A stretch of DNA of 64,000 nucleotides from Jatrophihabitans sp. GAS493. GTDB lineage: Bacteria > Actinomycetota > Actinomycetes > Mycobacteriales > Jatrophihabitantaceae. Both the position numbers and the translations under genes were made by a program. The notes under the pieces were generated by a model. It saw only the letters and a list, made by a program, of their open reading frames with translations. It was not told where the DNA came from and made no database searches. Below, in pieces: positions 5,998-62,134 of this stretch (position 1 is its first letter; every line of letters starts with the position of its first letter). The stretch is taken from NCBI RefSeq assembly GCF_900230215.1, contig NZ_LT907982.1:2852001-2916000 (forward strand), written 5' to 3'.

Positions 5998-6864
5998 TCA
6001 GCCCAGTGGGGTGACATCAACGCTAACCCGCATCGACGAGTTCTTGGCATCGGTCATGATGACCCCCTTCAGCGGTGGTACATCGCTGTAGTCGCGGCCG
6101 TGCGCGAGGATCAGGTAGCGGTGGTCCACAAACTGGTTGTTCGTCGGGTCGATGTCCACCCAGCCACTGCCCGGGAGCAGGACCGATGCCCAGGCGTGCG
6201 ATGCGTCGGCCCCCTGCAGCTTCTGCTTCCCCGGTGGTGGCACGGTCTCCAGGTAGCCACTCACGTAGCGCGCGGCCAACCCCACCGAACGCAGGCAGCC
6301 GACGGCCAGATGGGCGAAGTCCTGGCAGACACCCGAACGATTGGCCAGCACCTCGGTGAGCGTGCTGCGCACCGTGGTCGAGCCGCTCTTGTACTTGAAG
6401 TCGTGGTAGATCCGCGAGGTGAGGTCGGCGATGGCCTCGCCGAACGGCCGCCCCGGCGTGAAGATCGCCCCGGCGTATTGGCTGACGTCGCCTGCGGTCG
6501 CGATCTGACGGGAGGGGAGCAGGTACTGGCGGGCTGGATCGTTGCCGGCCAACCCGTCCCGGGCCTGCTCCCAGCTGACGCCGTTCAGCGTCGTGACGTC
6601 TACCGCCGGGCGGCTGATCTCCAGCACACACCGCGACGTCACGTTCAGGATGGTGTGGGCTTCGCGGACGACGAAATAGGACGAGCGATTGCCGAAGAAG
6701 TCGACATGTTCGCGGGTCTCGGCCGGCTCGGGCGAGACGACCAGGTCGGCCGAGAGAACGGCCTGCCCGGTGAGATCGTGGGGGAGCAGATGGGCGCGCC
6801 CGTAGCTGGCCGTCACCTCGTCGTCGTAGGTGTAGGTCGTGGTGTGCGTCAGGCTGTACCTCAC
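5998..6864 (-). CDS. Transglutaminase-like cysteine peptidase
   Basis: 288 residues: an N-terminal beta domain (from about residue 3, YSLTHTTTYTYDDEV) typical of bacterial transglutaminase-like proteins, then the papain-like core. The triad is Cys180 (SGVCQDFAHLA), His223 (ASHAWASV) and Asp239 (GWVDIDPTNN). The family makes or cleaves amide bonds. Its genes regularly sit next to circularly permuted ATP-grasp/alpha-E proteins, as here, where that gene ends only 25 bases upstream. It is likely cytoplasmic, since no signal peptide is seen. The substrate is unknown. Confidence 0.9.
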   Translation of the reverse strand: MRYSLTHTTTYTYDDEVTASYGRAHLLPHDLTGQAVLSADLVVSPEPAETREHVDFFGNRSSYFVVREAHTILNVTSRCVLEISRPAVDVTTLNGVSWEQARDGLAGNDPARQYLLPSRQIATAGDVSQYAGAIFTPGRPFGEAIADLTSRIYHDFKYKSGSTTVRSTLTEVLANRSGVCQDFAHLAVGCLRSVGLAARYVSGYLETVPPPGKQKLQGADASHAWASVLLPGSGWVDIDPTNNQFVDHRYLILAHGRDYSDVPPLKGVIMTDAKNSSMRVSVDVTPLG

Positions 6865-6889
6865 TTCGTCGCCCCCATCCGCGCGTCGC

Positions 6890-9481
6890 TCATGCTGACC
6901 CCAGCATCACGAATGGGTTGAGCGGGACCAGTGCCGCCGGTGGCACGAAGTGACTGCTCGCGATCGTCGTATTGAGTTCGCCCAGCGCCTGACGCAGCGG
7001 GTCGAGCACGCCGGCCAGGGCCTCGCGCCGCCCGTGCGAGGCCACAGCCAGCGCCGCGGGGTCGCTCTCGTGCAGCCGGGCGGCAATGTCCAGCACCTGA
7101 CGCTTCAGTGACTCGCCCGACGGGCCGAGGCGGCTGATGTCGTTGCTGATGTGGTCGAGTTGATAGGCCACCGAGCGGGGATTCTCCCGGTCGATGAGCA
7201 GCAGGCTGAGCACGGTCTCCGCTCCGGCACCGGCGGTGAAGCGGCGACGGTGGGTGATGAGGCTGTCGGCCGCGATCAGGGTCGACTCCATGATCAGCGC
7301 CTCGGCTTCGACGTCGTGGGCCTGGCTGAGGTTCGCGCTGAGCAACTCCGAGATCCCGATCGCCCGCTCCAGACGACGTCCCAGGTCCAGGTAGGCCCAA
7401 CCGTCATCGCGGACCATGTTCTCGGCGACGACACCGGAGAAGGCCAGTAGTGAGGAGAGCACTGAGGCCAGCGCCGGGGTGATGTCGTTGGCCGCCGCCC
7501 AGCCACGCGTGGCGGCCTGGAACGGGGCGAGGGTGCGGTCCAGACCGCCAAGCACCAGCCAGGTGTCACTGGAGAGCTGGTCGCGCACCGCATTGGCCAG
7601 CTCGCGCAGGCGCCGCACGTCGTGGGCGATGGTGCCGGGTCGCAACTCGTCGCCGAGCAGCGAGAGGAGCTCATCGCGCGGCTTGGTCAGCCGGGCGGCT
7701 GCGCCGTCACCGATGAATCCCGGGTAGGTGGCGGTCACCGAAGTCACCGACTCCAGCAGCACGCGTAGACATCGGGTCAGCGCCGGATCGGCCGCCGCAT
7801 GCACATCCCGCCAGCGGTCGTCGGTGACCCGCAACAGGCGGGCCACCTCCTCAGCCCGTTCCGCGTAGCGCCCGAGCCAGAAGAGATCGGCGGCAACTCG
7901 CGGTGAGACGGCGTTGCTGACTGCATCCGGGGTGAGCGGATCCGGAACGACCGCGAGGTCGGCCAGCTGAGCGCCGGGCGAGAGGACCCAGAGGTCCTTG
8001 CTGGTCGCCCCGTCGAGGTTGGAGACGATGTCGGCGTCGGCGGAGTTCGCGACGCGCACCAGGCCGCCCGGCATCACCCGGAACGTCGGCCCGTCACTGA
8101 CGGCGAAGGTGCGCAGCAGGACCGGTCGCGGCTCGAGTCCGGCCCGCGTGACGGTCGGGGCGGAACTGAGACTCAGCGCCTCCTGGGCCACCCAGCTGTG
8201 TGGTTCGGACTCGATCCGCGCGGCCAGCTCGGCCCGTTGGTCGGCCGACAACAGCCAGCCCAACTTGCTGCTGCGGCCGACCAGCCGGGCGATCGGTTTG
8301 AAGACCAGCGACTCCATCTGGCTCAGTGCGTGCGCCCGGGCCACCGGGTCACCGCACCACCAGGTGCGGGCCGACTGCAGCCGCAGTGGTTCGCCGAGCA
8401 GCGCCTCGCAGATCGCGGGCAGGAAGCTGTACAGCCCCGGGTTCTCCAGCACGCCGGCGCCGAGGGGGTTGGCCACCGACACCGCGCCGAGGCGGCTGGC
8501 CTCGACCAGCCCGGGGACGCCGAGCTGGGAGTCCGGGCGAAGCTCCAGTGGATCGCAGAACCAGCTGTCGACCCGGCGCAGGATCACATCGATCGGTTCC
8601 GACCGTCCGGTGACCGATCGCTGCCACACGCGTCCGTCGCGGAAGACGAGGTCTGATCCTTCCACGAGCGGGAAGCCGAGCAGTGACGAGAGGTAGGCCT
8701 GATCGAAACCGGTCTCGCTGCCGGCCCCCGGCGTCAGCAGCACGACCCGTGGCGCCTCGTGCTGGGTGGGCGAGAGCCGCTGCAGGGACTGACGCATCGC
8801 CTGGAAGAACGGGCCGATTCGATGGATGTTGCTGGCCCGGTGCAGCCCGGTCATCGCCCGCGAGATGGCCCGGCGGTTCTCCATCGCGTAGCCGGCGCCG
8901 GATGGTGCCTGGGTTCGATCGGCCAGCACCCGCCAGGTGCCGTCGGCGTCGCGGGCCAGGTCGGTGGCGGCCAGGAAGAGTTGATGCGTTCCCCGCAGCC
9001 GGATCTGATCCACCTCACGCAGGAACCCGCTGTGGCCGAGTACCAACTCCGGCGGTACCAGGCCACGGGAGATCAGTTGACGAGCGCCGTACAGGTCCGA
9101 GAGCACCACATCGAGGAGCTCGGCTCGCTGGACCAGGCCCGGCTCGAGCGCGGCCCACTGCGCCTCATCGACGACCATCGGGACCGGGTCCAGGGACCAC
9201 GCCTGATCGATCGGCGCTCCGTGCGCGCGGTAGGTGACGCCGTCGTCTTCCAGCAGGCGACGGACGGTGTCACTGCGTTCCCGCAGTCCCACCGGGCCGA
9301 GCACGTCCAGGAGTGCGCCGACCTCGCGCCATGGCGGGCGCACCGAGCGGTTCGGGGCGAGCATCTCGTCCCAGCGGGCGTCCGGCAGCGGGTAGTCGTC
9401 GACCACCGACCCAGTCGAACCGGGCAGCGTCAGTCCGGACAGTGCCGGAGAGGACCCCGGTTCGACTGCCGGTGCACTCAC
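6890..9481 (-). CDS. Circularly permuted ATP-grasp protein fused to an alpha-E domain
   Basis: 863 residues in one chain. Residues about 30-510 are the circularly permuted ATP-grasp type 2 region (formerly DUF404/DUF407). They carry the family stretches RREVDQIRLRG-like at 154-163, GYAMENRRAISRAM near 198, LLTPGAGSETGFDQAYLSS near 248 and NPLGAGVLENPGLYSFLP near 338. Residues about 525-840 are the helical alpha-E domain (formerly DUF403), opening with RVAADLFWLGRYAERAEEVARL. In many bacteria these are two genes. ATP-grasp enzymes ligate carboxylates to amines, so an amidoligase is likely, but no product is known. The GTG start overlaps the upstream stop as GTGA. Confidence 0.9.
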   Translation of the reverse strand: MSAPAVEPGSSPALSGLTLPGSTGSVVDDYPLPDARWDEMLAPNRSVRPPWREVGALLDVLGPVGLRERSDTVRRLLEDDGVTYRAHGAPIDQAWSLDPVPMVVDEAQWAALEPGLVQRAELLDVVLSDLYGARQLISRGLVPPELVLGHSGFLREVDQIRLRGTHQLFLAATDLARDADGTWRVLADRTQAPSGAGYAMENRRAISRAMTGLHRASNIHRIGPFFQAMRQSLQRLSPTQHEAPRVVLLTPGAGSETGFDQAYLSSLLGFPLVEGSDLVFRDGRVWQRSVTGRSEPIDVILRRVDSWFCDPLELRPDSQLGVPGLVEASRLGAVSVANPLGAGVLENPGLYSFLPAICEALLGEPLRLQSARTWWCGDPVARAHALSQMESLVFKPIARLVGRSSKLGWLLSADQRAELAARIESEPHSWVAQEALSLSSAPTVTRAGLEPRPVLLRTFAVSDGPTFRVMPGGLVRVANSADADIVSNLDGATSKDLWVLSPGAQLADLAVVPDPLTPDAVSNAVSPRVAADLFWLGRYAERAEEVARLLRVTDDRWRDVHAAADPALTRCLRVLLESVTSVTATYPGFIGDGAAARLTKPRDELLSLLGDELRPGTIAHDVRRLRELANAVRDQLSSDTWLVLGGLDRTLAPFQAATRGWAAANDITPALASVLSSLLAFSGVVAENMVRDDGWAYLDLGRRLERAIGISELLSANLSQAHDVEAEALIMESTLIAADSLITHRRRFTAGAGAETVLSLLLIDRENPRSVAYQLDHISNDISRLGPSGESLKRQVLDIAARLHESDPAALAVASHGRREALAGVLDPLRQALGELNTTIASSHFVPPAALVPLNPFVMLGSA

Positions 9482-12400
9482 CCTGCTCCAAGTACTCGGC
9501 GCAGATCCATGGTGTACAGCATCTCACCGGGGTGGACCTTTGCCGCGCTAGCGGCGATCGCGTCGCGCTCGTCGCCGATACTCCCACCGAGCACGAAACG
9601 CGACGAGCGACGGGCCTCGGCCTCGTTCGCGTTCACCGGGAAACGGTCGTAGGAGCGCCCGCCGGGGTGCACGACGTGGAAGGTGCAGCTGCCGACCACA
9701 TCGCCGGTCCACAGATCGATCACCTCGAAGATCAGCGGCGAATGGACGCCGATCGTCGGGTGCAGTCCAGACGGCGGAGCCCAGGCCTTGAACCGGACGC
9801 CCGCGACCAGCGCGCCGGTACCACCGGAGGCCGATGTCGGGGCCAGCGGGGCCAGCGGCAGCGGTGCCCCGTTGCAGGTGACCGAGTAGCGCCCGGGAGT
9901 GGCACCGGTGACCTCGACCTGGACCCGCTCGACCGAGGAGTCGACGTAACGAGCGGTGCCGCTGCCGGTGGCCTCCTCACCGAGTACGTGCCAGGGCTCG
10001 ATGGCCGAACGCAGCTCCAGGTGAACGGGGCCGAGCTGGGCGGCGCCGAGCTGCGGGAAGCGGAACTCGACGAAGGGCGTCATCCAGTTGAGGTCGAACT
10101 CGATACCGTGGCTGTTCAGGTCCGCCACGACCTCGGCGATGTCGGCTGCGACGAAGGCGGGGAGCAGAAACCGGTCGTGCAACTGGGTTCCCCAGCGGAC
10201 CAGGTCACCGCGGTACGGCTCGCGCCAGAAGCGGGCCACAAGGGCTCGCACCAGCAGCGCCTGCACCAGGGACATCTGCTCGTGTGGAGGCATCTCGAAC
10301 CCGCGAAGCTCCAGCAACCCGAGGCGCCCCCGGGAGGAGTCGGGGCTGAATAACTTGTCGATGCAGAACTCGGCCCGGTGGGTGTTGCCGGTCAGGTCGG
10401 TGAGCAGGTGGCGCAGCGACCGGTCGACTGCCCACGGACGGGCGTCCGCACCGAGGCGGTCCAGTTCGGCGAAGGCGATCTCCAGCTCGTAGAGGTAGTC
10501 ATGCCGGGCCTCATCCACGCGCGGCGCCTGGCTGGTCGGGCCGATGAACCGACCGGAGAAGAGGTAGGAAAGGGACGGATGGTGCTGCCAGAAGGTCAGC
10601 ATGCTGATCAGTAGATCCGGCCGGCGCAGGATCGGGCTGTCGGCCGGCGTGGGGCCGCCGAGCGTGATGTGACTGCCGCCGCCGGTACCCGTGTAGGTGC
10701 CGTCGAGGGCGAATTTCTCGGTGCCCAGGCCGATCTCGTGGGCGGCTGTGTGCAGCGAGTGGTTGATCTCCACCAGCTCGTCCCAGGATGCCGCCGGCTG
10801 GACGTTCACCTCGATCACCCCGGGATCCGGGGTGACCGTCAGCGTGCGGGTACGGGGGTCACCGGGAAGGCCGTAGCCCTCGATGACGATCGGCACTCCG
10901 ACGACCATCGCCGCGTCCTCGAGCACCCTCAGCAGCTCGACCGCGCTGTCGAAGTCGTCCAGCGGGGGGAGGAAGACGAAGAGGTGGCCGTCGCGGACCT
11001 CGACGGCCAGGGCGGTCGTCGGGGCGTCGGCGATCGGGGTGACGCTGGCCGGCGGCAGGTCGGCCTCCGGTGAGGGGAGGTCCCCGCTGGCCGAGAACGG
11101 GACATCCACCGGCCGCGGTGGCGGGCCCTCCCAGCTGATCGAGTTCAGCGGAAGGCGCAGGCCGACGGCCGATGTACCGGGGATGAGCACCAGATGCCCG
11201 CGTCGGGTCCGCCAGCGGGCGGTGGCCCAGGCATCACCGGTCTCGCTGCGATGCAGCGGGAGGACGTAGCCGGTCGGGTTCACAACCTCCCGGTCGAGCT
11301 CGGCGACGACGGCCCGGCGAGCATCGCGCGCGTCGCTGAGTTCCGGGTCGAGATCGAACTCGGGTGCTTCGTCGGCCGGCAGCTTGGCCTCGTCGGCCAG
11401 CATCTGCAGGCGGTCCTCGTAGGCCGGCAGCACGAAGTCGTCATCGATACCGACGCCACGGGCGCAGAGCAGCGCGAAACGGTGCGCTATCCCATTCGCC
11501 CGCTCCTCGTCGATAACGGCTTTGCCCCACGGGTCGTCCAGCAGGTCGGCGTCGCGCCACAGCGCGACGTCGTCCAGCCGCCAGGTGATCGCGATCTGCC
11601 AGCGCGGCAGCGGCTCGCCCGGATACCACTTGCCCTGGCCGTGGTGCAGCACCCCGGCGGGGGCGTAGTGCTGCTTCATCTTGGCCGCGAGTTCGGTGGC
11701 CAGCGTCCGCTTCTCCGGCCCGTCGGCGGCGATGCTCCACTGCTCGGACTCCATGTCTCGTACCGAGACGAAGGTCGGCTCGCCACCGATGGTGAGGCGT
11801 ACGTCGTCGGCGGTCAGCTGAGCGTCCACCGCATGACCGACCGCCATGATGTCGTCCCACTGCCGGTCGGTGTAGGGCTTGGTGACCCGGGGATCCTCAC
11901 GGATACGCCGTACCTCGTTGACGAACTCCATGGTGGTGATGCACGGGTCGACGGTGCCGGTTATCGGTGCCGATTGGGCCGGTGACGGGGTGGCCGAGAG
12001 CGGGATGTGCCCCTCACCGGCGAAGAGGCCGGAGGTCGCGTCCATCCCGACCCACCCCGCGCCCGGGAGGTAGACCTCGGCCCAGGCGTGCAGATCGGTG
12101 AAGTCTTCGGTGAGCGGCGCGACGCCGTCCGGGGAGTCGGGCACGTCCGGGGCGAGCTGGACGAGGTAGCCGGATACGAAGCGGGCGGCGAGGCCCACCT
12201 CACGAAGCGCCGAGACCAGCATCCAGGCGCTGTCGCGGCAGGAGCCGATCCCGAGATCCAAGGTCTGGTCCGGCGTCTGGACGCCGTGCTCCATTCGTAC
12301 CGTGTAGGCGATCGACCCGGCGACCCGGGCATTCAGCGCGGCGAGAAACTGCACAATGCCGACCCCGTCGGCGTCGATCGGCGGAGCCTCGTCGAGCCAC

Positions 12401-52532: not shown

Positions 52533-52604
52533 GCCAACGGCCGTGCGCGGGTGCGAAATGCAAAAAACGCTTCCGGTCGGTCGGGAGATCGGCGCAAAAC
52601 CCCG

Positions 52605-52610
52605 TAGTCT
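52605..52610 (+). promoter_or_regulatory. Candidate -10 box for leaderless pyk transcript
   Basis: TAGTCT lies seven bases before GTG 52618, in the 85-base gap after gltB. No ribosome-binding site precedes the start, so transcription may begin at the start codon. Confidence 0.45.
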
Positions 52611-52617
52611 GTTTGAT

Positions 52618-54039
52618 GTGACACGTCGCGCAAAGATAGTTTGCACACTCGGGCCCTCGACCGATACGCGTATCCGTTCGCTCATAGATGCCGGCATGAA
52701 TGTTGCCCGCCTCAACTTCAGCCACGGCGAGCATTCAGAGCACGGAATGCGCTTCCGCGAAGTGCGGGAAGAGGCTGAGGCATCCGGCCGCAATGTCGCC
52801 ATTCTGGCCGACCTGCAGGGGCCGAAGATCCGGCTCGGGCGCTTCGCCGACGGCCCGGTGATGTGGGCAACCGGTGAGCGGGTGCGGATCACCGTCGACG
52901 ACATTCTCGGTGACCACGACCGGGTCTCCACCACCTACAAGCAGCTCGCCGAGGACGTCCGGGCCGGAGACCGCCTCCTGGTTGATGACGGGAACGTCGG
53001 GCTGGTCGCCGTCTACATCGAGGGCAACGACGTCGTCTGCGACGTGACCGAAGGTGGGAAGGTCAGTAACAACAAGGGTCTCTCCCTGCCTGGCGTCGCG
53101 GTCAGCGTGCCGGCCATGTCGGAGAAGGACGCCGACGACCTGGAGTTCGCGCTGCGGCTCGGCGTCGATTTCATCGCATTGTCGTTCGTCCGCAGTGCCG
53201 AGGACGTGAAACTGGTGCACGAGGTGATGGACCGCGTGGGCATTCGCCGCCCGGTCATCGCCAAGATCGAGAAGCCGGAGGCGGTGGACGCCCTCGAGCA
53301 GATTGTGCTGGCCTTCGACGGCATCATGGTGGCGCGCGGCGACCTCGGCGTGGAGATGCCGCTGGAGCAGGTTCCGATGGTGCAGAAGCGGGCGATCCAG
53401 ATCGGGCGCGACAATGCCAAGCCGGTGATCGTCGCGACGCAGATGCTGGAGTCGATGATCACCCACTCGCGCCCGACCCGGGCCGAGGCCTCGGACGTCG
53501 CCAACGCGGTCCTCGACGGCGCCGACGCGGTGATGCTGTCGGGTGAGACGAGCGTCGGCACCTACCCGATTCAGACGGTGGCCACGATGGCCCGGATCAT
53601 CGACTCGATGGAGACGTCCGGGCTGTTTGTGCCGGGTTTGATGCACAATCCGCGTACATCCGGTGGTGCGATCGCCAAGGCGGCCAAGGACATCGGAGAC
53701 GCGATGGGGGCGGTGGCCCTGGTCGCCTTCACCCAGACCGGCGACACGGCCCGGCGGCTGGCCCGCCTGCACCCGTCGCAGCGCTTCATCGTCTTCACCC
53801 CGGACGAGAATGTGCGCCGCCAGATGGCGTTGCTCTGGGGCACCGAGGCCTATCTGGTCTGGACCGTACAGACCACCGATGAGATGGTTCGCCAGGTCGA
53901 CGCGGCGCTGGTGCAGCGAGCGGTCTGTCGACCCAACGATCTCGTTATCGTTGTTGCTGGAACTCCGCCAACCACGCCCGGCGCCACGAACACCATTCGT
54001 GTCCATCACATCGGGGATGTGCTCCAACGTGACCGCTGA
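52618..54039 (+). CDS. pyk: Pyruvate kinase
   Basis: Last step of glycolysis, making pyruvate and ATP. 473 residues beginning TRRAKIVCTLGPSTDT, directly at the conserved first strand. Family stretches are MNVARLNFSHGEH, LADLQGPKIRLG, KIEKPEAV, the signature IMVARGDLGVEMPLEQVPMVQK (positions 238-259), MLESMI and MLSGETSVGTYP. The frame is open 75 bases further upstream, but that stretch is not part of the enzyme. The tesB gene overlaps its end. Confidence 0.97.
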   Translation: MTRRAKIVCTLGPSTDTRIRSLIDAGMNVARLNFSHGEHSEHGMRFREVREEAEASGRNVAILADLQGPKIRLGRFADGPVMWATGERVRITVDDILGDHDRVSTTYKQLAEDVRAGDRLLVDDGNVGLVAVYIEGNDVVCDVTEGGKVSNNKGLSLPGVAVSVPAMSEKDADDLEFALRLGVDFIALSFVRSAEDVKLVHEVMDRVGIRRPVIAKIEKPEAVDALEQIVLAFDGIMVARGDLGVEMPLEQVPMVQKRAIQIGRDNAKPVIVATQMLESMITHSRPTRAEASDVANAVLDGADAVMLSGETSVGTYPIQTVATMARIIDSMETSGLFVPGLMHNPRTSGGAIAKAAKDIGDAMGAVALVAFTQTGDTARRLARLHPSQRFIVFTPDENVRRQMALLWGTEAYLVWTVQTTDEMVRQVDAALVQRAVCRPNDLVIVVAGTPPTTPGATNTIRVHHIGDVLQRDR

Positions 54040-55174: not shown

Positions 55175-55765
55175 GTGGTAGAGACATCAACGCTTCGTAT
55201 CCTCATCGCCGAAGACGAAGCGATCATTCGCCTCGATCTTCGGGAGATGCTCCAGGAGGAGGGGTTCAGCGTCGTCGGCGAGGCGGCCGACGGCGAGCAG
55301 GCTGTGTCGCTGGCCCGGGAGCTCACGCCAGACCTGGTGATCTGCGACGTCAAGATGCCGAAGATGGACGGCATCACCGCCGCCGCCGTGATCACCGAGG
55401 AACGCATCGCACCCGTGGTCATGCTCACCGCGTTCAGTCAGCGTGATCTGGTCGAGCGGGCCGGCGAGGCCGGTGCGATGGCCTACCTGGTGAAGCCGTT
55501 CCAGAAGCGGGATCTGCTGCCGGCGATCGAGATGGCGACGGCGCGTTTCGCCGAGGTGCGGGCCCTGGAGCACGAGGTCACCGATCTGAAGGACCGTCTG
55601 GAGACCCGCAAGCTGATCGAGCGGGCCAAGGGAACCTTGATGACCCAGCACAAACTCTCCGAGCCGGAGGCCTTCCGGTGGATCCAGCGAGCGGCGATGG
55701 ATAACCGCACGTCAATGCGCGCGGTAGCCGAGCTGGTACTGACGGGCAACATTACCGGTAGGTAG
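55175..55765 (+). CDS. pdtaR: ANTAR-domain response regulator (PdtaR-like)
   Basis: 196 residues. A receiver domain (8-122) contains the acidic pocket AEDE (13-14), phospho-acceptor Asp58 in LVICDVKMPKMDG and Lys107 in YLVKPF. A short coiled coil leads to an ANTAR RNA-binding domain (about 135-190) with KLIERAKGTLMTQHKLSEPEAFRWIQRAAMD. ANTAR regulators bind paired hairpins in nascent RNA and prevent termination. The cognate kinase PdtaS is not adjacent. The GTG start is supported by AAAGG eight bases upstream. Confidence 0.93.
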   Translation: MVETSTLRILIAEDEAIIRLDLREMLQEEGFSVVGEAADGEQAVSLARELTPDLVICDVKMPKMDGITAAAVITEERIAPVVMLTAFSQRDLVERAGEAGAMAYLVKPFQKRDLLPAIEMATARFAEVRALEHEVTDLKDRLETRKLIERAKGTLMTQHKLSEPEAFRWIQRAAMDNRTSMRAVAELVLTGNITGR

Positions 55766-55878
55766 CGGGCCGGCATGTTGGATTCAAGTGTGGAGATTTG
55801 GTTACGACCGGCCGTCGGTTTCCAACGAATCAGTGTGAACGCACGACCCCTCCATTAGGCTCCACGAATCACAGCGGA

Positions 55879-55888
55879 CATCTAGATG
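55879..55888. repeat. Perfect 10-base palindrome in the livK leader
   Basis: CATCTAGATG, flanked by GGA on the left and AG-TCC on the right, lies 33 bases before livK and just after a TANNNT box (TAGGCT, 55855-55860). It could be an operator or a small leader hairpin. Confidence 0.4.
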
Positions 55889-55920
55889 AGTCCGCCCGAT
55901 TCTCCCTAAGGGGTCTGTCA

Positions 55921-57087
55921 GTGCGTATTACTCCGATAACGAAGGTTGCGGTCGTAGGACTCGCCGCGGCGCTCGCCCTCACGGCGTGCTCCAACAGCAA
56001 GAAGGACAGCACCACGACCACCGCGTCAAAGACGTACAAGATCGGCTTCGAAGGGCCGCTCTCGGGTGACAACGCTCAGCTCGGCATCAACGAGGTCAAC
56101 GCGGTTGACCTCGCCGTCGAGCAGGCGAACGCCAAGAGCGACCTCGGCTTCAAGCTCGAGCTCGTCAAGTCAGACGACGTCGGTGACCCGGCCAAGGCGC
56201 CGGCCGCCGCGGCCGTGCTGCAGCAGGACGCAGCGATCCTCGGCGTGATCGGCCCCAGCTTCTCGGGCGCGACCAAGGCCGTCGGTGCCTCCTATGATGC
56301 GGCGGGCTTGGTGCTCATCAGCCCCTCGGCGACGAACCCGGCGCTCACCACGCTCGGCTTCAAGTCCTTCCACCGCGTCGTTCCGCCGGACTCCCTCGAG
56401 GGCCAGGAAGCCGGCGACTACCTGGTGAAGAAGTCCAAGAAGGTCTTCGTCGTCGATGACCTCAGTGACTACGGCAAGGGTGCGGCCGATGCGGTCGAGA
56501 CGGCGGTCAAGGCCGGCGGCGGAACCGTTACCCGCCAGGGTGTGGACGCCAAGACCACCGACTACAGCGTCATCGCGACCGCGGTTGCGGCATCCGGTGC
56601 CGGTGCCCTCTTCTACGGTGGTTACGACACGCAGGCCGGGCAGTTCGCCAAGGCGCTGAAGACGGCCGGTTACACGGGCCTGACCATGACCGGCAACGGT
56701 GGCAAGTCCTCGAAGTTCACCACGGCCGCCGGCGCTGCCGGTGACGGCTGGTACTTCTCCTGTGGCTGCCTGGATGCCACCGTCGCTCCGCAGGCGAAGG
56801 ACTTCAACACCGCGTACAAGGCGAAGTTCAACACCGACCCGTCGACCTACTCGCCGGAGGCCTACGACGCCACCAACGCCCTGATCAGCGCGATCTCGAC
56901 GTCGGCCAAGAGTGGCACGGCAACCCGCGCGGCGGTCTTCAGCGCGGTTAACGAGCTCGACTACAAGGGCATCACGACGCAGATCAAGTTCCTGCCCAGT
57001 GGTGAGGTTTCGGCTCAGGTCATCAACCTGTACCAGCAGAAGGCTGGGGCCATCGGCCTCCTCGGGGACATCAAAACCGCCAGCTAA
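55921..57087 (+). CDS. livK: Branched-chain amino acid ABC transporter, substrate-binding lipoprotein
   Basis: 388 residues from GTG 55921 (AAGGGG seven bases before). The signal ends in lipobox LTAC with Cys23, so the protein is tethered outside the membrane. The periplasmic-binding-protein type 1 fold of the Leu/Ile/Val family begins YKIGFEGPLSGDNAQLG and includes VIGPSFSGATKAV, PSATNPALTTLGFKSFHRVVP and SPEAYDATNALISA. It is the first gene of a complete liv importer. Ligand choice (leucine-type versus other amides) cannot be read from sequence. Confidence 0.93.
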   Translation: MRITPITKVAVVGLAAALALTACSNSKKDSTTTTASKTYKIGFEGPLSGDNAQLGINEVNAVDLAVEQANAKSDLGFKLELVKSDDVGDPAKAPAAAAVLQQDAAILGVIGPSFSGATKAVGASYDAAGLVLISPSATNPALTTLGFKSFHRVVPPDSLEGQEAGDYLVKKSKKVFVVDDLSDYGKGAADAVETAVKAGGGTVTRQGVDAKTTDYSVIATAVAASGAGALFYGGYDTQAGQFAKALKTAGYTGLTMTGNGGKSSKFTTAAGAAGDGWYFSCGCLDATVAPQAKDFNTAYKAKFNTDPSTYSPEAYDATNALISAISTSAKSGTATRAAVFSAVNELDYKGITTQIKFLPSGEVSAQVINLYQQKAGAIGLLGDIKTAS

Positions 57088-57111: not shown

Positions 57112-57160
57112 GGAAAGGGCACTGTCACCCACCGAACGGTGGTGTGGCGGTGCCCTTTCC
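57112..57160. terminator. Stem-loop between livK and livH (likely attenuating or stabilising)
   Basis: Perfect 11-base arms (57112-57122 and 57150-57160) enclose a second stem, CCACCG/CGGTGG (57129-57134 and 57137-57142). No T-run follows. Such an element after the binding-protein gene would keep more livK than permease transcripts by partial termination or by protecting the upstream RNA end. Confidence 0.65.
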
Positions 57161-57266
57161 TGCAGGCGAAGCAGTATGTTCAATCGCAAGTTCGTCAACT
57201 CTTCCCGGCCATCTTCGGCGTAGCCCCGCGGCGTCGGCGATGTTGTTTGAAAGGTTGCATTCCCCT

Positions 57267-58208
57267 GTGAACTACTTCCATGAGCTGCCGCAGTACCTCG
57301 TCGGTGGTGTTGCCCGTGGCTCGATGTATGCGTTGATCGCGCTCGGCTATACGTTGGTCTACGGCGTTCTGCAGCTGATCAACTTCGCGCACAGCGAGGT
57401 GTTCATGTCGGGTGCGTTTGGAAGCTACATCGTGGTGCATGCCTTGGTCGGCGACGGCAAGGACGTTTCGTCGTGGGAGGCGCCGGTGGTGTTCCTGGTC
57501 GGCGTATTGAGCGGGGCGTTGACCGGTATCTGTGTCGCATGGACGTTGGAGCGGGTGGCGTACCGGACGCTGCGTAAACGAGGGGCGCCGAAGTTGGCGT
57601 TTCTGATCAGCGCGATCGGGGCGTCCTTCTTCTTGTCGCAGTTGGCCGGGAAGCTGTTCAACCGGTTCCGGGGTAACTCGTTCCCGACGTACTTCGACCA
57701 GAACAAGACGGTCTTTTCGATAGCGGGGGCGGACGTGCACCTGATTCAGGTGCTGATAGTCGTGATCGCGGTGATCTGCATGATCTTCCTGGACCGCTTG
57801 GTCTCCAAGACCAAGCTGGGTCGGGGCATTCGTGGTGTGGCTGAGGACGCGCCGACCGCGGCGTTGATGGGTATCGACATCGACAAGACGATCTCGCGGA
57901 CCTTCATGATCGGTGGGGCGTTGGCCGGGGTTGCCGGGTTCCTCTTCGGGACGGCGTTCTCGTTCTTCAACACGATGGGCTTTGATGTCGGAACCAAGGC
58001 GTTCGCCGCCGCGGTGCTCGGCGGTATCGGGAATATCCGGGGTGCGATGCTCGGTGGTCTGCTGCTGGGTATCGTCGAGTCTGTGGTGCCTCCGATCAGT
58101 TTCATCGGTATCGAGTGGACCGACGTGGTCGCGTTCGTGGTGCTGGTGTTGGTGCTGATCGTTCGACCTACCGGCATCCTCGGTGAGCGATTGGGGCGTG
58201 CGGCATGA
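57267..58208 (+). CDS. livH: Branched-chain amino acid ABC transporter, permease LivH
   Basis: 313 residues, about eight membrane helices, beginning NYFHELPQYLVGGVARGSMYALIALGYTLVYG. The cytoplasmic coupling loop is GRGIRGVAEDAPTAALMGIDIDK, followed by GGALAGVAGFLFG and AAVLGGIGNIRGAMLGG. GTG 57267 (AAAGG upstream) begins just before the first helix; ATG 57240 is possible. The open frame further upstream runs through the stem-loop and is not part of the protein. It overlaps livM by four bases. Confidence 0.92.
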   Translation: MNYFHELPQYLVGGVARGSMYALIALGYTLVYGVLQLINFAHSEVFMSGAFGSYIVVHALVGDGKDVSSWEAPVVFLVGVLSGALTGICVAWTLERVAYRTLRKRGAPKLAFLISAIGASFFLSQLAGKLFNRFRGNSFPTYFDQNKTVFSIAGADVHLIQVLIVVIAVICMIFLDRLVSKTKLGRGIRGVAEDAPTAALMGIDIDKTISRTFMIGGALAGVAGFLFGTAFSFFNTMGFDVGTKAFAAAVLGGIGNIRGAMLGGLLLGIVESVVPPISFIGIEWTDVVAFVVLVLVLIVRPTGILGERLGRAA

Positions 58209-60439
58209 TCCGGCGTTACAACAACTCACCTTTCGCGCAGCGTCTGGTCGCATGTGTGGCGGGCTCCCTCGTCCTGGCCCTGATGTGGGGGCCGCAGGAG
58301 GGTGTGCAGGAGGACTACGGCTACGCCTTCCGTCAGGCGGTCCTCAAGCCGCGGGTCTTCGTCTTCATCGCCCTCGGAGTCGGTGCGTGTGTGCTGATCA
58401 CCTACTGGCCGCGGATCCGCCCGTATCTGGGACGGCCGGGTGTGTCGCCCACGTTCGTCGGTGGACTGACGGTGGTCGCGTCGTACACCCTGCTGCAGTG
58501 GGACTCTCAGATCGGCAACGGCAAGCTCGGCACGGTCAACACCGCGATCAGTTCGGCCGACGGGATCTCGCCGTTGGCGGCGGCGTTCTACGGTTGGCTG
58601 CATTGGGTGCTGTTCTTGGTGACGTTCGTCGTGGCGGCGGCCGCGACGATGCGGCGGATCGCGATCCTAGCCTGGGTGGGTGCCGGGTTGGCCTTGGTGT
58701 CGGGGGTGATCGCGTTCTACGCTCATTCGCTGGCAGTTGAGTTCACCGGCAGTGATGATCATTCCTTCGGTGCGGTCGGCGCGTTGATCGGCTTTCTCAC
58801 GATCGCGGTGGCCTGCGCGACGTCGGCGCTGTCACCGAATCAGGTGGCGCGGGGACGCGCAGTCTTCTCCCAGTTGCTGGATTGGCGTCCGGGTCTGCTG
58901 GTCGCCGCGGCCGGAACGCTGGCCGGTCTGCTGTCGTTCAGCTCGAACACCTGGATCGCGCCACAAGGGGTGAACGCCACCTTCTCCGACACCTACGCCT
59001 TGTTCGAGGGCAGTGACCTGTCGGCGGTTGCGCTGGCGTATCTGCAGTGGCTGGGCTGGGCGCTGTTCTTCGTGACCGCGGTGGTGTCGCTGGTGGCCTG
59101 CTATCTGCGGTTGCGCTGGCTGGGCTGGATCGGGGCTGTGCTGGGGATCGTGTCGGTGGTGCTGACGTTGCTGACGCTGAACCGGATCTCGACGTTGGCC
59201 CCGAGCCTGAACATTGTCGGTTCGACCGGTCCGTGGCAGAACCTCGGTGCTGGCGGCTGGTTCGCTTGTTTCGCGTTCTCGCTACTGGCCGCCGGCGCTG
59301 CGGTGGCGGCGACGACGCCCGGGCTGGAGAAGACGCGGCTGCCTTCCGGGGCGCCGGCGTCAAAGGCGGGTCAGACCGCGGCGGCGATGGGGCAGCGGAT
59401 CGGCTCGACGAACAAGAGCCTGATCCTGATCGGCATCGCGATCGCGTTGTTCTACCCGCCGACGATGACAGATTTCTGGCAGAAGGTGCTGGTCACCGAG
59501 ATCGGTGTGTACGTCCTGCTGGCCGTCGGGTTGAACGTGGTGGTCGGCTGGGCCGGTCTGCTTGACCTTGGTTTCATTGCCTTCTACGCCATCGGCTCGT
59601 ACACCACCGCCTATTTGGTCGGGTCGTTGCCGCATAAGCCGCCGTCGTGGCTGCATATGACGCCGCTGCTGGCGATCCCGTTCGCGGTCGGGGTCTGTCT
59701 GCTCGCCGGGCTGGCGTTGGGTGCGCCCACACTGCGATTGCGCGGTGACTATCTGGCGATCGTGACCCTCGGCTTCGGTGAGATCATCCGCATCGCCGCG
59801 ATCAACAACCCGTTCAACCTGACCAACTCCACCCGTGGCCCGTCGCCGACGGTGCCGCACCCGGTGATTCACATGGGCCCGTTGTCGATCAAGTGGGGAT
59901 TGAACAACCTGCAGTACTGGTATCTGCTGCTGGTGATCATCATCATCGTGGTGGTGCTCTTCTACCGGTTGGAGGGTTCACGTATCGGTCGGGCGTGGGC
60001 CGCTATCCGTGAGGATGAGATCGCAGCCCAGGCCAGCGGCATCAACACCACCCGGGTGAAATTGCTGGCCTTCGCGATCGGTGCGTCGACCTCGGGTATC
60101 ACCGGTGTCTTCTTCGCCTCCCAGGTCGGGTACTTCAACCCGGACAACTTCGTGCTGAACAACTCGATCCTGGTCGTCGCCTACGTCGTCTTCGGTGGGA
60201 TGGGATCACTGGCCGGTGCGATGGCCGGTGCGGCGGTGCTGACCTGGCTGCCGGAGTTCTTGAAGGATCAGGTTCCGGCCGATGACCGTCAAATGTGGAT
60301 CGGCGCGATCCTGCTGCTGATGATGATCTTCCGTCCGGCTGGTCTGCTCCCGGCGAAACGGCGCAAGGCGGAGCTGTCCGGGTTCGGGGTGGCCGCCTCG
60401 TCGGAGACTCGGGCCGTCCCCGTGAGCGAAGGGTTGTAA
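58205..60439 (+). CDS. livM: Branched-chain amino acid ABC transporter, permease LivM with duplicated N-terminal membrane domain
   Basis: 744 residues, about twice the usual LivM. The true permease domain is residues 405-715: VYVLLAVGLNVVVGWAGLLDLG, GDYLAIVTLGFGEIIRI, the coupling loop GRAWAAIREDEIAAQASGI, and VVFGGMGSLAGAMAGA. Residues 1-375 are additional membrane segments in two similar units (about 83-213 and 227-375). Both show a D/S-rich loop followed by W-L-x-W-x-LF-x-VT-x-VV, then a W-x-G-A-x-L helix and a G-A/G-rich last helix. I recognise no family for this part. It overlaps livH by four bases (ATGA), so it is expressed with the importer. Confidence 0.9.
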   Translation: MIRRYNNSPFAQRLVACVAGSLVLALMWGPQEGVQEDYGYAFRQAVLKPRVFVFIALGVGACVLITYWPRIRPYLGRPGVSPTFVGGLTVVASYTLLQWDSQIGNGKLGTVNTAISSADGISPLAAAFYGWLHWVLFLVTFVVAAAATMRRIAILAWVGAGLALVSGVIAFYAHSLAVEFTGSDDHSFGAVGALIGFLTIAVACATSALSPNQVARGRAVFSQLLDWRPGLLVAAAGTLAGLLSFSSNTWIAPQGVNATFSDTYALFEGSDLSAVALAYLQWLGWALFFVTAVVSLVACYLRLRWLGWIGAVLGIVSVVLTLLTLNRISTLAPSLNIVGSTGPWQNLGAGGWFACFAFSLLAAGAAVAATTPGLEKTRLPSGAPASKAGQTAAAMGQRIGSTNKSLILIGIAIALFYPPTMTDFWQKVLVTEIGVYVLLAVGLNVVVGWAGLLDLGFIAFYAIGSYTTAYLVGSLPHKPPSWLHMTPLLAIPFAVGVCLLAGLALGAPTLRLRGDYLAIVTLGFGEIIRIAAINNPFNLTNSTRGPSPTVPHPVIHMGPLSIKWGLNNLQYWYLLLVIIIIVVVLFYRLEGSRIGRAWAAIREDEIAAQASGINTTRVKLLAFAIGASTSGITGVFFASQVGYFNPDNFVLNNSILVVAYVVFGGMGSLAGAMAGAAVLTWLPEFLKDQVPADDRQMWIGAILLLMMIFRPAGLLPAKRRKAELSGFGVAASSETRAVPVSEGL

Positions 60440-60443
60440 GACG

Positions 60444-61421
60444 ATGACATCAACACTCACACCGTCCGCCGCGCCGGCGTCGTCGGGCGGCAACCACGGG
60501 GCCGCTGATGTGGTCTTCGACGTGTCACACGCGACGCTGCGTTTCGGTGGGGTGACCAGCCTCAATGACGTCTCCCTGCAGATGTTCCGCAATGAGATCC
60601 TGGCGATCATCGGCCCGAACGGTGCGGGTAAGACTTCGCTGTTCAACTCGTTGACCGGTGTCTACACACCGCAGGAGGGCACGATCGAGCTGTCGGGCCG
60701 AGCCGGTGACCCCCCGACCTCGGTGCTGGGTAAGAAGACGCATCTGATCAACCGCATGGGAGTGGCCCGTACTTTTCAGAACATTCGTCTCTTCCCGGCG
60801 TTGACCGCGCTGGAGAACGTGCAGGTCGGGATCGAGACGCGGCAGAAGTCGGGCCCGATCGCCTCCATGCTCGGGCTGCCGAGGCAGCGGCGGGAGCAGC
60901 GCGAGAGCCTGGTCAAGGCCTACGACCTGCTCGCCGACGTCGGGCTGTCGGAGCGGGCCAACGAGCTAGCCGGATCATTGGCCTACGGCGAGCAGCGACG
61001 GTTGGAGATCGCCCGCGCGCTGGGCACCGAACCGGGCGTGCTGCTGCTCGACGAGCCGGCCGCCGGCACCAATCCGGTGGAGAAGCGGGACCTGGCCCAA
61101 TTGATCCAGCGGATCAACACCGAACGCGGCATCGGGGTGCTACTCATCGAACACGACATGAAACTCGTCATGTCGATCGCGCATCGCATCATCGTGCTCA
61201 ACTTCGGCGAGAAGATCGCCGAAGGGACACCAGCCCAGATCCAGCGCAACCCGGCCGTCGTCGCCGCCTACCTGGGCACGTCGGCGGAGGAGGCGGAGAC
61301 TGAGGTGGCGAACCAGCCGCAGATGAACCTGATCGACACCATCCCCGGCACCGATACCGAAGCCGAACCCGGCGACACCGAAGAAACCCGGTCGCCTAAC
61401 GCAGAGGGGAGTGCGGAATGA
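60444..61421 (+). CDS. livG: Branched-chain amino acid ABC transporter, ATP-binding protein LivG
   Basis: 325 residues. Walker A GPNGAGKTSLFN, Q-loop VARTFQNIRLFP, signature GSLAYGEQRRLEIARAL, Walker B VLLLDEPAAGTNP and switch His in LLIEHDMKLVM are all present. After residue 275 there is an acidic, disordered tail (about 50 residues) not found in typical LivG. The short form of the signature (AYGEQ rather than SGGQQ) is normal for LivG. It overlaps livF by four bases. Confidence 0.95.
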   Translation: MTSTLTPSAAPASSGGNHGAADVVFDVSHATLRFGGVTSLNDVSLQMFRNEILAIIGPNGAGKTSLFNSLTGVYTPQEGTIELSGRAGDPPTSVLGKKTHLINRMGVARTFQNIRLFPALTALENVQVGIETRQKSGPIASMLGLPRQRREQRESLVKAYDLLADVGLSERANELAGSLAYGEQRRLEIARALGTEPGVLLLDEPAAGTNPVEKRDLAQLIQRINTERGIGVLLIEHDMKLVMSIAHRIIVLNFGEKIAEGTPAQIQRNPAVVAAYLGTSAEEAETEVANQPQMNLIDTIPGTDTEAEPGDTEETRSPNAEGSAE

Positions 61422-62134
61422 GCCTGCTCGAAGTCGCCGACATCGAAGTCCGCTACGGCGCGATCGCTGCGTTGAAGGGCATCTCCTTCGACGTCGGCGA
61501 GGGTGAGATCGTCGCCCTCCTCGGTGCCAACGGCGCCGGCAAGACCACCACTCAGAAGACGATCTCCGGCATGCTGCGACCGGTCCTCGGCACCGTCACC
61601 TTCGACGGTGACCGCATCGACGGGGTCCCCGCCCACGAACTCATCGGCAAGGGAATCTGCCACGTCCCCGAGGGGCGCCACGTCTTCCCCCGCATGACCG
61701 TCGCCGAAAACCTCGACATGGGCGCCTACCGGTTCAAGAAGACCGACGCCGACCTAATGGAGCAGGTCCTGGTCATGTTCCCCCGACTGCGGGAACGGTT
61801 CAAACAACCCGCCGGCACCCTCTCCGGCGGTGAACAGCAGATGCTGGCCATCGGCCGCGCCCTGATGGGCAAACCACGCCTACTGCTGCTCGACGAACCC
61901 TCCATGGGCTTGGCCCCGCTCATCGTCGCCCAGATCTTCGACATCATCCGCGAGATCAACAGCACCGGTGTCACCGTCCTACTCGTCGAACAGAACGCCG
62001 CCCAAGCCCTCGGCCTGGCCAACCGCGGCTACGTCATGGAGACCGGCGAGATCGTCCTGCAGGGCACCGGCACCGAGCTACTCGCCGACGACCGCGTCCG
62101 CGCCGCCTACCTCGGCGAAGAGATCGCCTCCTAG
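61418..62134 (+). CDS. livF: Branched-chain amino acid ABC transporter, ATP-binding protein LivF
   Basis: 238 residues of standard LivF length. Walker A GANGAGKTTTQKT, Q-loop CHVPEGRHVFP (the LivF form), signature LSGGEQQMLAIGRALM, Walker B LLLLDEPSMGLAP and LVEQNAAQAL in place of the switch His region, as usual for LivF. It is the last gene of the liv operon and pairs with LivG to drive transport. Confidence 0.96.
   Translation: MSLLEVADIEVRYGAIAALKGISFDVGEGEIVALLGANGAGKTTTQKTISGMLRPVLGTVTFDGDRIDGVPAHELIGKGICHVPEGRHVFPRMTVAENLDMGAYRFKKTDADLMEQVLVMFPRLRERFKQPAGTLSGGEQQMLAIGRALMGKPRLLLLDEPSMGLAPLIVAQIFDIIREINSTGVTVLLVEQNAAQALGLANRGYVMETGEIVLQGTGTELLADDRVRAAYLGEEIAS

Follow-up and report, generated by a model that had tools for sequence, protein, structure and literature searches.

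The liv cassette and its insert-bearing permease gene

We analysed a stretch of 64,000 nucleotides from Jatrophihabitans sp. GAS493 (contig NZ_LT907982.1, positions 2,852,001 to 2,916,000), hereafter the window, in which the gene for a LivM-type permease of an ATP-binding cassette (ABC) importer carries an insert of about 300 residues with eight predicted helices. The gene, livM (58205..60439; all features described here lie on the forward strand), is one uninterrupted open reading frame (ORF) of 744 codons with an ATG start, which overlaps the stop codon of livH at 58205-58208. The insert is formed by two related blocks, A and B, that lie between helices 2 and 3 of the N-terminal region; ordinary LivM proteins lack it.

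From the N-terminus, the protein consists of residues 1-77 (58205..58435), with helices 1 and 2 and an outer loop; block A (residues 78-218; 58436..58858), with four predicted helices; a short junction (residues 219-225; 58859..58879); block B (residues 226-376; 58880..59332), again with four predicted helices; a variable, positively charged linker (residues 377-404; 59333..59416); and the last pre-core helix with the LivM core (residues 405-744; 59417..60436). The junction and the linker are probably cytoplasmic. The extra part stops at about residue 404, where the pre-core helix starts. Pfam family BPD_transp_2 (PF02653) matches residues 430-708 with 149.7 bits against a cut-off of 26.8, and neither Pfam nor NCBIfam gives anything above cut-off for residues 1-408. 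The NCBIfam model PRK11301 describes a narrower LivM subfamily, and its cut-off is missed (244.3 bits against 366, profile positions 72-415), so the protein is named here as LivM-type and not as a member of that subfamily.

The partners expected of a Liv importer are all present around the gene. They are livK, encoding the substrate-binding protein (55798..57087; ORF and family match, with an LTAC lipobox seen by eye); livH, encoding the partner permease (57144..58208, ORF limits); and the ATPase genes livG (60444..61421) and livF (61418..62134), each an ORF with a family match. The true start of livK is probably later than the ORF start. The LivM core, LivH, LivG, LivF and LivK are all ordinary members of such systems. 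Upstream of the liv genes lie a family-matched ANTAR response regulator gene resembling pdtaR (55175..55765) and an ORF that is a frequent neighbour of the cassette (52543..54039) and that, judged by its sequence, resembles pyruvate kinase genes (pyk).

The same order recurs in 23 insert-bearing loci collected in a named scan: livH is immediately upstream in 23 of 23 and livG downstream in 22, the remaining contig ending first. A pdtaR homologue is found near 19 of the 23, and three of the other four contigs are shorter than 9 kb. Six insert-free cassettes (L079-L083 and the more distant copy L104) have the same neighbourhood without the blocks, with pdtaR in all six and pyk in five.

Duplication, insertion and spread of the blocks

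A reading of the sequence alone had proposed that some 400 residues ahead of the LivM core contain two alignable blocks, and this is borne out. The two blocks are a genuine duplication. When the sequence of the window is taken by itself, the Smith-Waterman score of A against B is 136, compared with a mean of 39 (standard deviation 7.1, maximum 76) for 2000 shuffles of B. The profile-profile comparison of the two blocks that the sequence-only reading had suggested gives 99.1% (E 8.2e-19) over 135 columns. It was made with 30 homologues, a set also used for loop conservation and motifs, from which near-copies and contigs met twice were dropped and in which the contig-cut L012 was kept. Controls stay low, at 0.9% or less for A or B against two parts of the LivM core or the N-terminus, 1.4% for A against reversed B and 1.3% for B against reversed A. 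The motifs quoted for the blocks are literally present, as GWLHWVLFLVTFVV, AWVGAGLAL and SALSP in A and as QWLGWALFFVTAVV, GWIGAVLGI and ATTPG in B. Both blocks also have RPG ahead of helix 1 (R77-P78-G79, and R228-P229-G230 within a WRPG), with each position conserved in 29 or 30 of the 30 rows. The first 77 residues are outside the duplication. Three family assignments for the blocks were considered and rejected, all of them under cut-off: PAP2_3 (E 0.0061, or 0.0011 for block A alone), which was treated as chance since only the window matched among 23 rows; the Rv1678 membrane family (E 0.016, or 0.0021 for block B alone); and HGxxPAAW (E 0.0067 for block A).

The extension had been pictured as a domain placed before LivM, and here the earlier description does not hold. 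Residues 8-77 match five insert-free orthologues at 99.1% (hhalign, E 1e-18; five other segments 1.6% or less), and residues 400-442, which contain the pre-core helix, match insert-free LivM at 99.2% (E 2.3e-19; other segments 1.6% or less). The flanking segments (1-77 and about 405-442) thus belong to the ordinary N-terminal region of the lineage. Since both occur in syntenic LivM proteins without the blocks, A and B are an insertion between helices 2 and 3 of that older region, and an N-terminal fusion of a whole domain is ruled out. The gain of eight helices would leave the permease that follows them with its usual topology. The LivM of Escherichia coli has a comparable short N-terminal part (DUF3382, which we take to be PF11862); a Pfam match to DUF3382 was not listed at E values up to 10 for window residues 1-77 or 1-215 or for four insert-free N-termini.

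When 121 genomes of the order were searched with the core, 62 had matches at E 1e-60. Fifteen matches have a core identity of at least 69%, and all 15 carry the blocks; L079 (64% core identity) and L080-L083 (55-60%) have the short N-terminus only. In a midpoint-rooted tree of the core (29 insert-bearing and 20 insert-free rows, with L012 left out), the insert-bearing proteins form one clade (support 100/98) nested among the insert-free ones. L079 adjoins this clade (99/93), and the fork after that brings in L080-L083 (100/100). A single change suffices to explain the distribution of the insert on this tree, and a single gain is the simplest account. In a tree of the modules, which takes 18 of the 30-row set, A (18 rows, 100/99), B (18 rows, 99/97) and 13 stand-alone relatives (94/97; see below) each form one group; the duplication therefore came before the clade spread.

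Strong full-length matches (E 1e-73 or better) were found in 16 of 24 genomes of the window's own bacterial family (f1) and in one of 17 other genomes of the relatives sample. Fifteen of these 17 strong matches make up alignment A1 (L009 and L011 omitted). Matches along the full insert in other families are few: three of 17 genomes in f73, two of 57 in f84 and four of 100 in the family of a Marmoricola genome. In two samples of the phylum (296 and 396 genomes), no genome but that of the window has a match as long as the insert, which agrees with the earlier view that the extension is not common in actinobacterial LivM; these wide searches score few candidates per genome (at most six and four, respectively, compared with 17 for the 121 genomes of the order and for the Marmoricola family, and 31 for f84), and absences in them are no proof. 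The 23 loci of the named scan, several of which are the same contigs as in the genome samples, are labelled Jatrophihabitans, Blastococcus, Klenkia, Marmoricola, Pseudonocardiales, Frankiales, Actinomycetota, Intrasporangiaceae and, in one case, Variovorax (a metagenome-assembled genome, MAG); the window and 22 of them (L035 omitted) make up alignments A3 and A4. Cultured carriers with a name include Klenkia soli DSM 45843 and Blastococcus sp. TF02-8. The patchy presence outside f1 suggests that the cassette spread there by transfer. Two loci deserve separate mention. The contig titled as a Variovorax MAG (L042, 4034 bases in all) includes the cassette, and its LivM falls together with those of Blastococcus and Klenkia in the core tree; it is probably a misbinned actinobacterial contig. 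Another locus, from the sample of 396 genomes (L055, G387:C41:21179-21376), matches in the N-terminal helices only (profile positions 4-70) within a 683-residue open frame, and this may be a LivM that lacks the insert.

The insert is under purifying selection. The ratio of nonsynonymous to synonymous substitution rates (dN/dS) is below 1 in both blocks in all seven pairs compared, ranging over 0.11-0.51 for A, 0.12-0.61 for B, 0.04-0.23 for the core and 0.11-0.73 for residues 1-77; these are simple Nei-Gojobori estimates, with some dS values near saturation. The length of the protein stays within 736-796 residues in the 29 complete insert-bearing proteins (L012 excluded). Beside the RPG positions, residues conserved in 29 or 30 of the 30 rows are W99, K107, D185 and H186 in A, and W250, N257, W282, W344, N346, G348 and G350 in B. 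Two of the motifs to which they belong lie in the second outer loops, namely DHSFG in A (residues 185-189; 58757..58771), with H186 in 30 and D185 in 29 of the 30 rows, and WQNLGAGGW in B (residues 344-352; 59234..59260), with W344, G348 and G350 in all 30. The latter reads W344-x-N-x-G-x-G-x-W352 in general form, and P253 is a further conserved residue of block B.

Predicted fold and stand-alone relatives

With the assignment of loops fixed beforehand, the inner loops are richer in Lys and Arg and the outer loops relatively richer in Asp and Glu. From this charge pattern and the structure models, each module is predicted to have its ends and a short middle loop inside and two loops outside. 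The model of the extension (mean predicted local distance difference test score, pLDDT, 80.5; predicted template modelling score 0.60) has helices 1-4 in each block, with a short outer helix preceding helix 2. A Foldseek search of the PDB gave no match better than E 0.24, the value of the first-ranked entry, YetJ. Foldseek's own candidates were re-examined with VIA-align. For the extension model, 47 of the 50 rows listed are TARP, GSG1L, claudin or MP20 structures, most of them aligned with block B (Z up to 11.1, 2.8 Å over 146 residues); for the full model, the same kinds of structure fill 47 of the 50 rows, aligned with block A (Z up to 11.2). Entries 7ldd, 6o9g and 7jpv_E are counted among these rows. 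The PDB holds many copies of the claudin/TARP superfamily, which weakens such counts as support for a fold, and helical bundles with Z below about 13 may share a common arrangement only. The unrelated pectin methylesterase inhibitor 1x90 reaches Z 10.2 with the extension model (tied with the best row) and 9.9 with the full model.

The claudin fold comprises four helices, a five-stranded outer sheet and a disulfide, according to PMC13307082. The blocks share with claudins, TARPs and PMP22 the predicted four-helix arrangement and topology, a Trp after helix 1 and the short outer helix before helix 2. The match in arrangement (four helices, with two loops outside and with the ends and the short middle loop inside) is one of prediction, from the models and the charge pattern. 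The blocks differ in lacking the outer Cys pair and, in the model, the sheet, and no convincing sequence match was found. The model shows no more of a five-stranded sheet than isolated bridge residues (251, 258 and 347), an absence that counts for little in A, where outer loop 1 has pLDDT below 50 at residues 101-108. In the 30 rows, none of the four outer loops ever has a pair of Cys, as the disulfide of claudin outer loop 1 would need, and one row has a single Cys.

Comparisons by sequence gave little. No claudin-type family is among the 20 Pfam families listed for the LivM extension, and for 13 stand-alone rows only the Clc-like family PF07062, presumably kin to claudins, appears, at E 0.89 in one row (25 of 34 families shown); single-sequence scans of this kind are insensitive. 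Among solved structures there was no match for P0001 at E 0.01 and none for the A3 profile at E 5, and the profile of the stand-alone modules (alignment A2) gave three unconvincing matches with E of at least 0.16. A viral fold library gave no match at E 0.001. A bacterial membrane protein, chain 9n8w_A of E. coli LetAB, superposes on block B with Z 9.7 (3.7 Å over 139 residues). This chain is presumably LetA, which resembles TARPs and claudins; it belongs to a lipid transport complex and not to an ABC permease, and the likeness to block B is one of structure. The blocks are described here as claudin-like in arrangement and not as claudins.

Searches with the extension also turned up ORFs in the window's own bacterial family that encode one or two modules. 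A profile of 13 such stand-alone modules (alignment A2, from loci L019-L030, with L002 omitted) matches block A at 99.0% (E 2.4e-18) and block B at 99.0% (E 5.8e-18), with 3.5% or less for controls (core parts, N-terminus and reversed profiles). Among 31 relatives, 12 of 19 f1 genomes have matches to stand-alone modules at E 7.5e-22 or better, beating any LivM block, and the 12 genomes outside f1 have none; the genome of the window itself shows no modules other than its two LivM blocks. The stand-alone proteins resemble A and B in the GWLxW of helix 2, the Trp ending helix 1 and the four hydrophobic stretches, and differ from them in being encoded by separate genes, single or in tandem, and, by eye, in lacking the motifs of outer loop 2. 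No Pfam family was found for these modules, and none of five stand-alone proteins scored above cut-off in NCBIfam. The existence of these homologues strengthens the earlier idea of a fused accessory membrane protein, and the modules were probably recruited from a stand-alone four-helix family of the same bacterial family.

The surroundings of some stand-alone modules were also recorded. At L128 and L129 the neighbouring genes are NAPRTase, isochorismatase and HAD/ACT (serB-like), joined at L129 by COX1, and at L131 HAD/ACT and COX1 genes are within about 5 kb of the module. L128 (G309:C70:10000-22505) has four stand-alone modules in about 4.2 kb (approximately 6411-7870 and 10172-10648), two of them in one 336-residue frame, an unfused tandem like A and B. 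At L023 (frame from MACGQCGAEL) the module follows a zinc ribbon (PF13240, 25.9 bits, cut-off 25) and a proline-rich stretch. Beyond the family, a search for stand-alone modules in the 296 phylum genomes (at most 12 candidates per genome) gave two weak matches besides the window's genome. The weak single-module matches, all within the same phylum, are L002 and L107 (G213) and L106 (G197), at E 5.7e-5 to 5.3e-4; they may be far relatives or chance. In the same sample, part of block B was matched weakly in G213 (E 5e-4).

Possible roles of the inserted modules

We tentatively favour a reading in which the inserted modules are a built-in accessory domain that contacts LivK or a partner in the membrane or envelope. 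The LivM-type permease of a LivKHMGF importer carries a tandem pair of four-helix modules in its N-terminal region, and these would sit beside the pore as an accessory subunit. The conserved outer loops may form a surface that touches LivK or another envelope partner, and the contact would steady the docking of LivK or tune gating. Given its lipobox, LivK, probably lipid-anchored, should sit on the outer face, beside these loops. The outer loops of the blocks are more conserved than the block helices (mean Jensen-Shannon, JS, score 0.537 versus 0.472, p 0.004); they make up 89 of the 299 residues of the stretch 78-376 and 18 of its 40 most conserved ones. An extra domain in an ABC importer permease is also found in MalF, whose P2 region contacts the binding protein according to a reference in PMC3150292; compared by description only, P2 differs in being periplasmic and in having no membrane helices.

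Several observations weigh against this assignment. The inner block loops are as conserved as the outer ones (JS 0.545, two-sided p 0.43), so that a lateral contact or one on the inner side would fit equally well, and JS scores are biased towards Trp and His. In the full-length model the core is of low quality (mean pLDDT 66.5), and the packing of the blocks on the core cannot be read from it. The blocks diverge much faster than the core, with mean identities to the window over 28 rows of 41% for A and 43% for B compared with 78%, and constraint on them is moderate. Divergence in the older N-terminal region is of similar speed (51% for residues 8-77, with the dN/dS range given above), so fast change is not specific to the blocks.

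Because the inner loops equal the outer ones in conservation, a role as a lateral membrane scaffold, serving oligomerization, lipid binding or localization with no direct part for LivK, fits nearly as well, although we consider it less likely. The RPG conserved before each block is in keeping with it, as are the best predicted fold matches, since claudins and TARPs act as lateral interactors; the strong motifs in the outer loops, DHS and WQNLGxGGW, speak against it. The nearest parallel would be TMD0 of TAP and TAPL, which in TAP has about four helices. This extra N-terminal membrane domain is an interaction hub, autonomous in TAP, as described in PMC3437018 and PMC6199259. The proteins compared, by description only, are exporters, and their TMD0 precedes the core.

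A narrower form of the accessory-domain reading takes the fold matches at face value. The importer would then have a bacterial auxiliary subunit of claudin/TARP type covalently built in, with two claudin-fold modules at the flanks of the pore, holding the Venus-flytrap binding protein or tuning it. This would parallel the way TARPs act on AMPA receptors, in which the ligand-binding parts are themselves relatives of bacterial binding proteins. We regard this form as unlikely.

It is more doubtful still that the insert is a tolerated passenger, inserted once and kept with no specific task since its removal would break folding. The blocks evolve faster than the core, with dN/dS up to 0.61 in Geodermatophilaceae pairs, and related cassettes without the insert exist, as such a history would allow; against it, no loss was seen among the 15 closest core matches in the order, and the motifs are near-invariant. 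Least probable is a sensor or receptor that recognizes a small ligand with its outer loops and passes the signal on by way of the importer or of the ANTAR regulator next to it: the conserved polar residues of the outer loops (K107, D185, H186, N257 and N346) and the frequent pdtaR neighbour would suit it, but Pfam and NCBIfam find no known output domain in the insert, and pdtaR, standing beside all six insert-free cassettes as well, has no link to the insert and was dropped as a sign of a regulatory role.

To our knowledge, no membrane-embedded accessory domain is known in a LivM-type importer permease, whereas such domains are known in ABC exporters. No description of an insert-bearing LivM was found in the open-access literature searched, and this form of the permease is apparently an undescribed, stable design. 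It also draws attention to a four-helix module that matched no Pfam family, that has free-standing relatives and whose arrangement in bacteria may be claudin-like. Related families have the same gene at the same locus, in some cases with the insert and in others lacking it, which provides a natural comparison of the importer with and without its additional modules.

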